A stretch of DNA of 64,000 bases. Origin: Streptomyces noursei ATCC 11455. Lineage in GTDB: Bacteria; Actinomycetota; Actinomycetes; Streptomycetales; Streptomycetaceae. The position numbers and the translations under genes were made by a program. Shown in pieces: positions 10,989 through 25,454 of this stretch. The stretch lies in contig NZ_CP011533.1 in NCBI RefSeq assembly GCF_001704275.1, forward strand, positions 7,068,001-7,132,000. Direction: 5' to 3'. The notes under the pieces were generated by a model, which did not search any database, had not been told where the DNA came from, and was given only the letters and a program-made list of their open reading frames with translations. Numbering within the stretch: position 1 is the stretch's first letter; every line of letters begins with the position of its first letter.

Positions 10989-12749
10989 ATGTCCACCAAC
11001 CCTTCCGACGATCGTTCGGAGCGCCGGCCGAGGCGCGACGGCGGTGACCGTGGTGGTTTCCGGCGGGACGACCGTGGGCCGCGGCGCGACAGCCGGGACA
11101 ACCGCGACAGCCGGGACAACCGTGGTGGTGAGCGCGGTGGTTACCGTCGCGACGACCGCGGTGAGCGGGGCGAGCGCGGTGACCGGGGCGGCTACCGCGG
11201 TGGGTTCCGTCGGGACGAGCGTGGCGGTGGCGAGCGTCGCGACGACCGGGGCGGTTTCCGGCGCGACGAGCGTCGGGACGACCGGGGTGACCGGGGTGAC
11301 CGGGGCGGGTTCCGTCGGGATGAGCGTGGCGGTGGCGAGCGGCGTGACGACCGGGGCGGTTTCCGGCGTGACGAGCGTCGCGACGACCGGGGTGACCGCG
11401 GCGGGTTCCGTCGGGACGACCGCTTCGAGCGGCGTGACGACCGGGGCGGTTTCCGGCGTGACGAGCGGCCCGAGCGTCGCGACGACCGTGGCGGATTCCG
11501 GCGTGATGAGCGGGACGACCGTGGTGGGTTCCGGCGTGACGAGCGTCGCGACGACCGGGGCGACCGTGGCGGGTTCCGTCGGGACGAGCGTGGTGGGGGC
11601 CGTGGTGGGTTCCGGCGGGACGAGCGGGATGATCGCGGTGGGTTCCGGCGGGATGACCGTTCGCGGGCGCCGCGGCGGGACGATGAGCGCGGTGGCTTCC
11701 GTCGCGACGACGAGCGCGGTGGCTTCCGTCGGGACGACGAGCGCGGTGGGTTCCGGCGCGACGAGCGTCGGGACGACCGGGGCGAGCGCGGCGGGTTCCG
11801 GCGCGATGATGAGCGCGGCGGTTTCCGGCGGGACGATCGAGGGCCGCGACGGGACGACCGTGGTGGTTTCCGGCGGGACGATGAGCGCGGGGCGCGGCGG
11901 CCGTACGGCGGTGGGCGTGGCCGGGACGACCGTAGGGACGGGCAGCGTCGGGACGACCGTCGGGACTACGACCGGGACCGGGAGCCGATCAAGCGGCTGC
12001 CGATCCCGGAGGACGTGACCGGCGAGGAGATCGACAAGGCGGTGCGGCAGGAGCTGCAGAGCCTGCCGAAGACGCTGGCCGAGGACGTCGCCAAGAACCT
12101 GGTGATGGTCGCGCGGCTGCTCGACGAGGAGCCGGAGAGGGCGTACGGGTACGCGCGGGTCGCGCTGCGGCTGGCGTCCCGGGTCGCGGCGGTGCGCGAG
12201 GCCGCCGGCTTCGCGGCGTACGGGACCGGCAAGTACGCCGAGGCGCTGAAGGAGTTCCGGGCGGCGCGGCGGATGACCGGCAGCGCGGAGCTGTGGCCCC
12301 TCATGGCGGACTGCGAGCGGGGCCTCGGTCGTCCGGAGAAGGCGCTGGCGATGGCCGGTGAGCCCGAGGTGCAGAAGCTGGACCGGGCCGGGCAGGTCGA
12401 GATGCGGCTGGTCGCGGCCGGGGCCCGGCGGGACCTGGGGCAGGCGGACGCCGCGGTGGTGACGCTGCAGAGCCCCGAGCTGGCGTCGAACGCGGTGCAC
12501 CCGTGGACCGCGCGGCTGCGGTACGCGTACGCGGACGCGCTGTTGGCGGTCGGGCGCGAGGGCGAGGCGCGGGACTGGTTCGCCAAGGCGCTGGAGGCCG
12601 ATCAGGCCGGCACCACGGATGCCTCGGACCGGCTGGCCGAGATGGACGGCGTGCAGTTCACCGATGCGCTGGTCGAGGACGAGGCCGAGGCCGAGGCCGA
12701 GGCCGGCGGTGAGGCGCAGTCCGGTGGCGGGTCGGAGAAGACCGAGTAG
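10989..12749 (+). CDS. TPR protein with long Arg/Asp/Gly/Phe-rich repeat tail
   Basis: 586 aa from ATG 10989 (AGGAG eight bases upstream; an in-frame ATG 13 codons earlier lacks a good site). Residues 1 to about 332 are a low-complexity tail built from irregular units such as GGFRRDDRGGFRRDE, almost entirely R, D, G, E and F: charge-balanced and RGG-box-like. Residues ~340-560 form an alpha-helical tetratricopeptide-like domain (EEIDKAVRQELQSLP, YARVALRLA, YAEALKEFRAA, ARDWFAKALEAD). The end is Glu/Ala-rich. The TPR part matches the position of the conserved actinobacterial TPR protein upstream of the HAD/tlyA genes (Rv1691 in M. tuberculosis, from memory). Function unknown; RNA binding or condensate formation is a guess from the tail. 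Confidence 0.88.
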   Translation: MSTNPSDDRSERRPRRDGGDRGGFRRDDRGPRRDSRDNRDSRDNRGGERGGYRRDDRGERGERGDRGGYRGGFRRDERGGGERRDDRGGFRRDERRDDRGDRGDRGGFRRDERGGGERRDDRGGFRRDERRDDRGDRGGFRRDDRFERRDDRGGFRRDERPERRDDRGGFRRDERDDRGGFRRDERRDDRGDRGGFRRDERGGGRGGFRRDERDDRGGFRRDDRSRAPRRDDERGGFRRDDERGGFRRDDERGGFRRDERRDDRGERGGFRRDDERGGFRRDDRGPRRDDRGGFRRDDERGARRPYGGGRGRDDRRDGQRRDDRRDYDRDREPIKRLPIPEDVTGEEIDKAVRQELQSLPKTLAEDVAKNLVMVARLLDEEPERAYGYARVALRLASRVAAVREAAGFAAYGTGKYAEALKEFRAARRMTGSAELWPLMADCERGLGRPEKALAMAGEPEVQKLDRAGQVEMRLVAAGARRDLGQADAAVVTLQSPELASNAVHPWTARLRYAYADALLAVGREGEARDWFAKALEADQAGTTDASDRLAEMDGVQFTDALVEDEAEAEAEAGGEAQSGGGSEKTE

Positions 12750-22959: not shown

Positions 22960-24018
22960 GTGTTGGTTGACAGTCCTCCCGTCGACAGTCCCACCGACGC
23001 GGCGACGGCCCCCACCGCACCCCGGCGGCGGCCTGCCGCCCGCGCCGCGGGACTGGCCGCCTGCCTCGTGCTCCTCGCCGTCGTCGCCGTCCTGGGCATC
23101 GCCGTCGGCGCCAAGGCGATCCCCGTCGACCAGGTCTGGCACGGGGTGTTCCACTACTCCGGCTCCGACACCGACGTCGTCATCCGCGATGTACGGCTGC
23201 CGCGCACGCTCCTCGGACTGCTGGTCGGCGCCGCGCTCGGCCTGGCCGGCACCGTCATGCAGGCGCTCACCCGCAATCCGCTCGCCGACCCCGGCATCCT
23301 CGGCATCAACGCCGGCGCCTCGGCCGCGGTGGTCTCCGCCATCAGCTTCCTCGGCGTCACCTCGCTGACCGGCTATGTGTGGTTCGCCTTCGCCGGTGCC
23401 GCGCTGGTCTCCGTCGCGGTCCACGTGCTCGGCGGCACCCGCAGCGTCACCCCGGTCCGGCTCGCGCTGGCCGGCACCGCGCTGACCGCCGTCCTCACCG
23501 GCTACCTCAACGCCGTCAACCTCATGGACTCCGCGGCGTTGGACCGGATGCGGTTCTGGACGGTCGGCTCGCTGGCCAACGCGACCCTGCCGACGGTGAC
23601 GCGGATCGCGCCGTTCCTGGCCGTCGGCGCGCTGCTCGCGCTGCTGCTCGCCCGCCCGCTCAACGCCGTTGCGCTCGGCGACGACCAGGCCCGGGCACTG
23701 GGCGCCCGCCTGACCCGCACCCGGGTGCTGGCCATGCTCGCGGTCACCCTGCTGTGCGGCGGGGCCACCGCGGTCTGCGGCCCGATCGTCTATCTCGGCC
23801 TGATGGTGCCGCACGCGGTCCGCGTCCTCACCGGGCCGGACCTGCGCTGGATCCTGCCGTACTCGGCGGTGCTCTCGCCGGTGCTGCTGGTCGGCGCCGA
23901 CGTGCTCGGGCGCGTGCTGGCCCGGCCCGGCGAACTCCAGGTCGGCATCGTCACCGCCGTCCTCGGCGGCCCGGTCTTCGTCCTCCTCGTCCGACGCCGG
24001 CGGATGGCCCAACTGTGA
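22960..24018 (+). CDS. FecCD-family siderophore ABC transporter permease 1
   Basis: 352 aa with about 9-10 membrane helices. Family signature: RLPRTLLGLLVGAALGLAG and MQALTRNPLADPGILGINAGAS. It forms the channel for ferric siderophore import with permease 2 and the ATPase. The GTG start is only six bases after the iron box and has no Shine-Dalgarno, consistent with a leaderless mRNA. The stop TGA overlaps the GTG of the first micro-ORF of the 92-bp array (GTGA). Confidence 0.94.
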   Translation: MLVDSPPVDSPTDAATAPTAPRRRPAARAAGLAACLVLLAVVAVLGIAVGAKAIPVDQVWHGVFHYSGSDTDVVIRDVRLPRTLLGLLVGAALGLAGTVMQALTRNPLADPGILGINAGASAAVVSAISFLGVTSLTGYVWFAFAGAALVSVAVHVLGGTRSVTPVRLALAGTALTAVLTGYLNAVNLMDSAALDRMRFWTVGSLANATLPTVTRIAPFLAVGALLALLLARPLNAVALGDDQARALGARLTRTRVLAMLAVTLLCGGATAVCGPIVYLGLMVPHAVRVLTGPDLRWILPYSAVLSPVLLVGADVLGRVLARPGELQVGIVTAVLGGPVFVLLVRRRRMAQL

Positions 24019-24290
24019 GCGTCGCACGCGCGGCCGCCGGGCTGCTGACGGGTACGAGAGGCGCGCTGCTGCGCCGCGCGGGCGGAGAAGCGAGCGGGGG
24101 TGCGCTGTGAGCGTCGCACGCGCGGCCGCCGGGCTGCTGACGGGTACGAGAGGCGCGCTGCTGCGCCGCGCGGGCGGAGAAGCGAGCGGGGGTGCGCTGT
24201 GAGCGTCGCACGCGCGGCCGCCGGGCTGCTGACGGGTACGAGAGGCGCGCTGTTGCGCCGCGCGGGCGGAGAAGCGAGCGGGGGTGCGCT
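24015..24290 (+). repeat. Three tandem copies of a 92-bp unit, each a coupled micro-ORF
   Basis: Copies begin at 24015, 24107 and 24199, each with GTGAGCGTCGCACGCGCGGC. They are identical except for C to T at 24253 in copy 3. A partial GTGAGCG follows at 24291. Each copy reads GTG to TGA as a 31-residue peptide (MSVARAAAGLL...GGEASGGAL), whose TGA overlaps the next copy's GTG (GTGA). GCGGGGGTG near each copy's end sits as a ribosome binding site for the next. Because 92 is not divisible by three, the array is not one open frame. It lies between the two permease genes. Confidence 0.95.
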
Positions 24291-24326
24291 GTGAGCGGAC
24301 GCGGCGAGCGAGGAGAGGCAGTGCAA

Positions 24327-25454
24327 ATGCACGCGACAGTGAGGTCGGACGGGTCCGGGACCGCGGGACGGCCGGGGGAGACCGCCGCGGCCGGGCCGCG
24401 GAGCGGGGCGCCGGTCGGCCGGCGGACCCGGGTGGTGCGGACCGCGGGCGGGTTCTCGCTCCGCCTGGACCTGCGCGCCGTCCTGTCCGGGGCGCTGCTG
24501 CTGGCCGTCGCGGTGGCCGCCACCGTCGCCCTGATCGGCTCCGGCGACTACCCGATGACCCCCTCGGAGGTGCTCACCACCCTGACCGGCGGCGGCACCA
24601 CCGGCCAGGAGTTCATCGTGCACGAACTGCGGCTGCCGCGGGTGCTGGTGGGGCTGCTGGTCGGCGCCGCCTTCGGGATCGCCGGCGCGGCCTTCCAGGC
24701 CGTCTCCCGCAACCCGCTGGGCAGCCCGGACATGCTCGGACTCTCCCAGGGCGCCTCGGTCGGTGCGCTGGTCGTCCTCGTGTGGTTCCACGGCGAGCCC
24801 CGCGCGGTGGCCGCCGGCGCGGTCGTCGGCGGCGTGGTCACCGGCCTGGCCATCTTCCTGCTCGCCTGGAAGCGCGGCGTCCACGGCTACCGCTTCGTCC
24901 TCGTCGGCATCGGCACCGCCGCCATGCTCTACGCCGTCGTGCTCTACCTCCTGACGAAGTCCACCCTCTACGACGCGGCCCGGGCCACCCTCTGGATGAC
25001 CGGCTCGCTGAGCGGCCGCGACTGGAGCCAGGTCGGCCCGCTGGCCGCGGTCTGCGCGGTGCTGGTCCCGGTGGCGCTGCTGTGCGGGCGGCCGCTGCGG
25101 ATGCTGGAGATGGGCGACGACGCGGCCGCCGCGCTGGGCGTCCGCACCGAACGGGTGCGGATCACCGTCCTGTTGGTCGCCGTGGTCCTCGTCGCGGCCG
25201 GTACCGCCGCGGCCGGCCCGATCTCCTTCGTGGCCCTCACCGCACCCCAACTCGCCCGCCGGCTGACCCGCGCGCCCGGCCCCAACCTGCTGCCCGCCGC
25301 GCTGATGGGCGCCGCGCTGCTGGTCGGCGCGGACTGGGCCGCCCAGCGGCTCTTCGGCGCCGACCAACTGCCGGTCGGCGTGCTGACCGGCGTCCTCGGC
25401 GGCGGCTATCTGCTGTGGCTGCTGGTCGCCGAGCGGAAGGCGGGACGGGTGTGA
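24327..25454 (+). CDS. FecCD-family siderophore ABC transporter permease 2
   Basis: 375 aa from ATG 24327, preceded by GAGGAGAGG. Alternatives are GTG 24321 and GTG 24291, the latter overlapping the last micro-ORF stop. A ~45-residue hydrophilic N-terminus precedes the helices. Family motifs: ELRLPRVLVGLLVGAAFGIAG and QAVSRNPLGSPDMLGLSQGAS. It pairs with permease 1. The stop is 76 bp before the ATPase gene. True N-terminus uncertain because of the repeat array. Confidence 0.92.
   Translation: MHATVRSDGSGTAGRPGETAAAGPRSGAPVGRRTRVVRTAGGFSLRLDLRAVLSGALLLAVAVAATVALIGSGDYPMTPSEVLTTLTGGGTTGQEFIVHELRLPRVLVGLLVGAAFGIAGAAFQAVSRNPLGSPDMLGLSQGASVGALVVLVWFHGEPRAVAAGAVVGGVVTGLAIFLLAWKRGVHGYRFVLVGIGTAAMLYAVVLYLLTKSTLYDAARATLWMTGSLSGRDWSQVGPLAAVCAVLVPVALLCGRPLRMLEMGDDAAAALGVRTERVRITVLLVAVVLVAAGTAAAGPISFVALTAPQLARRLTRAPGPNLLPAALMGAALLVGADWAAQRLFGADQLPVGVLTGVLGGGYLLWLLVAERKAGRV

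Follow-up and report, generated by a model that had tools for sequence, protein, structure and literature searches.

We analysed a window of 64,000 nucleotides (positions 7068001-7132000 of a single-contig 9.8-Mb genome) in which two FecCD permease genes are separated by three tandem copies of a 92-bp unit. TRF places the array at 24013-24297 with a period of 92, 3.1 copies, and a 99% match, and reading of the ORFs agrees: each unit holds a GTG frame of 31 codons whose TGA stop overlaps the following GTG as GTGA. Both permease genes join this chain, with the stop of FecCD-1 (TGA 24016-24018) overlapping the first micro-ORF start (GTG 24015-24017) in the first GTGA and the last GTG (24291) sharing its frame with FecCD-2. 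A preliminary description of the locus as a GTGA-linked chain running from one permease gene into the other was accurate on these points. Copies 1 and 2 are identical, and copy 3 differs from them by a single C to T change at 24253, which is synonymous in a Leu codon. The array is bounded by the direct repeat CTGTGAGCG, and the Shine-Dalgarno sequence of the window copies is weak (GGGGG, versus AGGAG in the family consensus). The features are listed below, with bit scores from covariance model R1, which was built from an alignment (A2) of 29 copies.

22960..24018, plus strand: FecCD permease 1 (ORF; PF01032, E 3.7e-90)
24015..24110, plus strand: element copy 1, micro-ORF GTG to TGA of 31 codons, 92-bp repeat period 24015-24106 (model R1, 92 bits)
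24023..24034, plus strand: 5' arm of the predicted stem in copy 1 (alignment columns 9-20), at the same offsets in copies 2 and 3
24073..24084, plus strand: 3' arm of the predicted stem in copy 1 (alignment columns 59-70), which extends into the conserved GGCGGAGAAGCG core
24107..24202, plus strand: element copy 2, micro-ORF with repeat period 24107-24198, identical to copy 1
24199..24294, plus strand: element copy 3, micro-ORF with repeat period 24199-24290 (model R1, 92.5 bits)
24291..24323, plus strand: probable fourth copy with an internal truncation, in which 5' end GTGAGCGGACGC meets 3' end GCGAGCGAGGAGAGGCAGTG
24291..25454, plus strand: FecCD permease 2 (ORF; PF01032, E 2.9e-77)

Two findings go beyond the preliminary description, namely the dispersal of the unit in this and other genomes and the resemblance of 24291-24323 to a truncated fourth copy. 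The latter is likely but not beyond doubt an internally truncated copy. Its last 20 bases have 2 mismatches to the family consensus 3' end, against an expected 0.00 such places, and nowhere else in the window does a 20-mer come within 3 mismatches of that consensus. A looser comparison (15 of 20 bases to any of 70 element ends) is less specific, yielding 21 plus-strand places, including the array and 24291-24323, and 17 on the minus strand. As GTG 24291 and GTG 24321 lie 30 nt apart, the putative remnant is in frame with FecCD-2, whose possible starts are GTG 24291 (coupled, reading through the remnant) and GTG 24321 or ATG 24327 after GGAGAGG. Because a stronger Shine-Dalgarno sequence with the start GTG 24321 lies inside the remnant, FecCD-2 might be independent of the micro-ORF chain for its start. 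Elsewhere in the window, a long imperfect repeat run at 11085-11890 gave many TRF rows and looks like Arg/Gly/Asp-rich low-complexity coding sequence.

A blastn search with one unit found 6 places in its own genome, 3 of which lie beyond the array at 80-84% identity. Among 101 same-genus genomes, this one included, 52 match at E<=1e-3, where short weak matches may be chance, and model R1 at the same threshold has matches in 54 of 150 same-genus genomes, again with this one included. The number of R1 matches is 8 in this genome, 15 in G079, and at most 19 (in G145). An exact pattern of 18 specified bases from the element core occurs in at least 119 stretches of named genome contigs, 105 of which also have a profile match; these comprise 97 from Streptomyces, 3 each from Streptantibioticus and Wenjunlia, 1 from Actinacidiphila, and 1 labelled 'Actinobacteria bacterium'. 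When R1 was run on 296 genomes sampled across the phylum, it matched 4 of the same genus (own included) and one other marginally (G221, locus L310), at E 0.006, with a copy that starts TTGA and holds a 22-codon frame. A phage search for carriers of the element gave no match, whereas a plasmid search returned 3 Streptomyces records with 64% of the query covered, and the one inspected has its match between argC and argJ. This record, the Streptomyces linear plasmid NZ_CP108157.1 (L367), thus carries argC and argJ with a partial element between them; its gene table, which is incomplete by design, has no entry in that gap.

There is also a short form of about 47 bp, which has both stem arms without the central loop and was found in S. 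hainanensis and in MAGs labelled Nocardiopsaceae and Streptosporangiaceae, at the following places.

L133, 4279-4329, plus strand: short form
L122, 2977-3027, plus strand: short form
L109, 4574-4624, minus strand: short form
L115, 5173-5223, minus strand: short form
L186, 6700-6750, minus strand: short form
L211, 474-521, minus strand: short form

It is tandem in L109 and L122, and the distance to the following GTGA is 47 nt (L133, L115) or 44 nt (L211), both 2 mod 3. A model of the short form (R2) had matches in 8 same-genus genomes (own included) and 2 others among 394; of the matches inspected, 4 from the same genus correspond to the 3' portions of long copies, and the 2 from other genera resemble chance matches.

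The full-length unit, about 89-95 bp long, has a GTGA of its own, an imperfect stem that pairs one end with the other, and a 3' end resembling a Shine-Dalgarno sequence. Read in the sense direction, it directly precedes the downstream start; most upstream genes end on the GTGA of the element, whose own frame continues to the native NTGA start. These properties can be counted from an nhmmer search of 275 loci, which gave 318 matches. After removal of matches that began beyond model position 3, lay too close to the end of a locus, or repeated an identical context, 227 distinct 5'-anchored copies remained, and 203 of these begin GTGA. It should be noted that most loci were chosen by the 3' core of the element or by model, rather than by frame, and that orthologous sites share descent, so the counts are neither independent nor random. 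The copies group into 171 sites, with 15 fused in frame to the following gene, 2 of other kinds, and 154 scored as coupled (a short micro-ORF ending in an NTG overlap), which is weak site by site, since an NTGA overlap is cheap and most TGA stops give one. A downstream sense-strand frame of at least 40 residues was present at 164 of the 171 sites, and the 164 proteins form 50 clusters, the largest of which is argJ (43 sites). For ten downstream proteins, the best NCBIfam matches were NuoE, NuoC, TrkA, PBP2/MrdA, CysD, triose-phosphate isomerase (TpiA), RibBA, SufS, PurL, and PstA, with TrkA (the full 225 residues given) and PBP2, SufS, and PurL (only 300 residues given) below the curated cut-off. 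Pfam placed further downstream proteins among ABC transporters, ketosynthases, amino-acid kinases, lipoyl ligases, FMN reductases, and AIM24, while one small downstream protein had no Pfam match. In S. toxytricini (L105), FecCD lies downstream here too, after two tandem copies. On the upstream side, the frame ending on the element TGA is open for 60 codons and has its highest GC (>0.8) at third positions at 143 of 167 sites, the test having failed at 24. The element is therefore oriented in the same direction as its flanking genes (143/167 upstream, 164/171 downstream).

Empty sites were available at three junctions. We fetched the FecCD junction from 29 relatives (L008-L036; 58 genomes matched), and in 29/29 an NTGA stands at the FecCD-1 stop with no element after it; a profile search of these loci likewise gave 0/29 matches. 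Between argC and argJ, empty loci read ...caccGTGAGTGTCACGG and occupied loci read ...caccGTGAGCGACGC...GATGCAGTGAGTGTCACGG, a difference of a clean 92 bp. At cysD, 20 of 30 loci lack the element, 14 of them reading ATGA and 6 GTGA; the occupied reference has GTGA, the element, and then ATGACG. The comparison of empty and occupied sites places the element directly before the native start, where it supplies the GTGA that ends the upstream gene, and it shows precise insertion before an NTGA start codon at the FecCD, argC-argJ, and cysD junctions.

Since an NTGA overlap comes cheaply, it is the argC-argJ and cysD tests that carry the weight for coupling. For the former, we found the argJ start from a motif of its own, so that its position did not depend on the micro-ORF. 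The motif had 106 matches, of which 39 were dropped because argC did not end in NTGA, leaving 67 junctions (9 empty and 58 occupied). Among the latter, 57/58 inserts are 2 mod 3 in length with a clean micro-ORF from the argC stop onto the argJ start, the exception being L296 (132). The lengths are of 15 different values from 50 to 137, and 14/15 are 2 mod 3. Several in-phase inserts carry a second repeat with a net 24 or 27 bases (L057, L118, L134, L194, L265, L282), and shorter diverged inserts, including ones of 50, 65, and 77 nt, are in frame as well (L288, L290, L291, L293). Two of the dropped matches, L174 and L192, are real junctions with a misplaced motif; their inserts of 92 and 152 nt are both 2 mod 3 and stand outside the 58. 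At cysD, the phase is an allowed one in 10/10 inserts (2 mod 3 in 8 and 0 in 2), with a clean 4-nt overlap in 7/10 and one (L332) in phase but without that overlap.

Tandem arrays follow the same rule. Of 39 distinct arrays, 21 have a period of 2 mod 3 (mostly 89 or 92), 17 have a period of 0 mod 3 (87, 90, or 93) such that the copies read through as one frame, and a single array breaks the rule (L155, period 91). If phases were free, the binomial probability of at most one array at 1 mod 3 in 39 would be ~3e-6, an estimate that makes the evidence look stronger than it is, because orthologous arrays are not independent. The longest arrays have nine units, of 92 bp in S. morookaense (L202), before a gene clustering with PBP2/MrdA-like ones, and of 89 bp in S. 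niphimycinicus (L189). In L176, L207, L113, L219, L234, and L226, tandem copies with a length of 90 or 93 bp share a single frame and are either fused to the following protein (an amino-acid kinase in L207) or form one longer micro-ORF. Judged from these lengths, the unit is restricted to phases in which a ribosome would either start again on the following gene (2 mod 3) or continue into it in the same frame (0 mod 3).

Some elements contain further insertions. A second palindromic repeat (GGGGGCACCTCCCAGCGGTAGCTGGGGGAG-like) lies inside the argC-argJ element in L057, L118, L134, L169, L194, and L201, with frame-keeping net additions. A third insert lies inside the element before its 3' end in L265, L282, and L292, the coupling frame being kept; it is GACAGYGACATCAGCCGC-like in L265 and L282, and peptides similar to that of this insert occur in the micro-ORFs of L220, L224, L251, and L263.

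These data bear on how the array arose. The preliminary description had regarded it as an expandable insertion preserving a 4-base coupling, whose removal would leave the permeases linked. The empty sites, tandem counts of up to nine, and 38/39 arrays in an allowed phase agree with the former, and the relatives show the latter to be right in kind. A search for the unit in other Streptomyces, also proposed there, came up empty at the FecCD junction of the 29 fetched relatives and succeeded elsewhere. Its suggestion of a recent slippage product fared unevenly. Replication slippage, meaning a local tandem duplication without function whose coupling is accidental, fits the 99-100% identity of the copies, the direct repeat at the array boundaries, and the missing element in the 29 relatives. 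However, the unit is dispersed before NuoE, NuoC, PBP2, PurL, TpiA, CysD, SufS, and others, and its presence at dozens of other junctions and in other species means that it was not made at the FecCD junction; the single phase of nearly all argC-argJ insert lengths also speaks against an accident. Slippage is thus refuted for the unit and quite unlikely as an account of the whole, while it may still explain the copy number here.

We also asked what is kept within the element. Frame 0 is open over 84 nt in 226/227 copies (frame 2 in 209/227) and yields a readable consensus peptide, VS(V/D)ARAAAGPQ...APLRRAGGEAN, both of which would be expected if the element encoded a functional family of small proteins of ~31 residues within operons. 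The ratio of non-synonymous to synonymous changes relative to expectation in frame 0 is also 0.73 at argJ alone; it is 1.41 elsewhere, however, and 0.88 pooled, so no consistent synonymous bias emerges, and codon position 3 does not have the highest entropy. Moreover, the diverged argJ inserts keep the frame and lose the peptide, several fused copies read the latter half of the peptide in a different frame, and an NCBIfam search with three micro-ORF peptides had no match. The peptide is without consistent amino-acid constraint; what is kept is the open frame, not clearly the peptide. On the basis of the substitution counts and the entropy by codon position we rejected the small-protein family, which we regard as very unlikely, and with it loses ground the earlier suggestion of small membrane-associated peptides.

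The stem behaves differently. In an alignment (A3) of 89/100 distinct 96-nt copies, from which 11 diverged or off-register ones were left out, columns 9-20 with 59-70 and 1-6 with 76-81 are paired in 97.5% of cells over the 89 near-ungapped copies. Two-sided changes number 60, compared with 15.6 after shuffling and 1-4 when the arms are slid. Within 35 argJ copies, 96.8% of cells are paired with 19 two-sided cells, and pairing is 87.4% in the 65 copies outside the argJ set, including the 11 left out of A3. The alignment thus indicates that an imperfect stem joining the ends of the element is kept by compensatory change. Such strong covariation, found even within orthologous argC-argJ copies, would also be expected of a cis-acting RNA regulator (an attenuator or stability hairpin) in which the stem is selected and the open frame is secondary. 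Against this, the downstream genes are unrelated, the short diverged argC-argJ inserts (50, 65, and 77 nt) keep the frame, and the window copies, folded one sequence at a time, come out less stable than their shuffled versions (z 1.93, 1.93, and 2.17). An Rfam search of 23900-24450 with E up to 5 found no family over the array, the sole match being SECIS_2 at 23914-23954, outside the array, with 21.6 bits (gathering 70). An RNA regulator of this kind is therefore unlikely.

Overall, we favor with good confidence a reading in which Streptomyces and its close kin carry a dispersed, MIRU-like translational-relay element, of which the array is a tandem. Having finished FecCD-1 at TGA 24016-24018, a ribosome would restart on GTG 24015, translate 31 codons, and stop and restart again at 24107, 24199, and 24291, being relayed in this way to FecCD-2; initiation at 24015, 24107, and 24199 is thus a prediction from the reading frames. 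Through such a relay an insertion would cost little downstream expression, and a nearly neutral element could persist and multiply at junctions of genes needing coupling. The micro-ORF peptide would be the by-product of a throw-away frame, and each copy may slightly lower downstream output. The three copies here could stem from slippage, from unequal exchange between identical units, or from successive insertions into the GTGA provided by a copy already in place. We infer that the element is, or has been, mobile; as no accompanying mobility gene turned up and the other copies that blastn found in this genome are only 80-84% like the window unit, present-day movement gets no support. The stem would serve either movement or the bringing together of stop and restart. 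A further-reaching version is possible, if rather doubtful: a mobile element targets the start codons of translationally coupled genes, its relay ORF makes insertion and tandem growth neutral, gain and loss of copies act as a tunable step-down with one termination-restart per copy, and the stem is kept.

One candidate for a mover can be weighed against the genomes. The element might be a REP-like hairpin moved by a Y1 (IS200/IS605-type) transposase recognising the GTGA at the foot of the stem, and a tetranucleotide does lie at the base of a stem that covaries, as in REP elements. However, PF01797 occurs in 4/11 chosen genomes with the element versus 3/10 without (7/21 in total), and it is absent both from this genome and from G145, which has 19 element matches. 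We rejected the Y1 transposase as mover since the presence of PF01797 does not track the element; its loss since the last movement is possible, and the explanation as a whole is highly improbable.

If the MIRU-like relay is the right reading, then the MIRU way of life, in which a repeat is hidden in translational coupling, exists outside the mycobacteria. In the open-access literature on Streptomyces we found no description of the element, most subscription papers lying outside that search. Dozens of insertions already exist in nature, three junctions have precise empty sites, and the number of relay steps ranges from 0 to 9; because Streptomyces are easily cultured and manipulated, the cost per termination-reinitiation step, a long-standing question, would be directly testable. 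There are also consequences for annotation, as a start codon may be set in the wrong place if the element is taken for an N-terminal extension or treated as ordinary intergenic sequence.

Among known systems, REP/BIME elements with RAYT transposases are dispersed short hairpins with a conserved tetranucleotide at the foot, and the Streptomyces element shares both the dispersed short hairpin and the tetranucleotide. Unlike them, it encodes a frame matched to its neighbours, sits in sense orientation before start codons, and is not tracked by Y1 transposase genes. Rickettsia palindromic elements are palindromic repeats tolerating in-frame insertion into coding sequence, which the fused copies here resemble, but the main mode of the Streptomyces element is a separate micro-ORF at a stop/start overlap, rather than an insertion inside a gene. 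The closest parallel is with the mycobacterial interspersed repetitive units (MIRUs), reportedly described by Supply et al. in 1997. Model R1 matched 23 of 148 genomes of the presumed mycobacterial genus (that of G244) at E<=1, with a best value of 0.006, and the 12 inspected look like chance; the likeness is drawn across genera from layout and behaviour, not from MIRU sequence.

As outlined in one review, a ribosome that terminates is able to reinitiate at a start codon overlapping the stop, which constitutes translational coupling, and MIRUs are short, mobile-looking, tandem-prone repeats that insert at start codons and carry an ORF coupled at -4 nt (PMC12548453). Those at senX3-regX3 are given as 77 and 53 bp (PMC4213456). 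The Streptomyces element is likewise a short (roughly 50-100 bp) dispersed repeat, it is found in tandem between operon genes (three copies in the window, 39 arrays, and up to nine units), and its internal ORF has the -4 overlap at 154/171 sites, in 57/58 argC-argJ inserts, and in 7/10 at cysD, the coupling being read from sequence. It also appears to insert at start codons, as seen from the empty sites at three junctions, points in the same direction as its flanking genes, comes in different size classes (about 92 and about 47 bp), and, like a MIRU, is probably mobile with little effect on expression. In addition to these shared traits, it shows the covarying stem that joins its ends and the in-frame fusion with periods of 87, 90, or 93 bp. 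Leaving aside descent from a common stock with the mycobacterial MIRUs, the analogy suggests that the Streptomyces element works like a MIRU.
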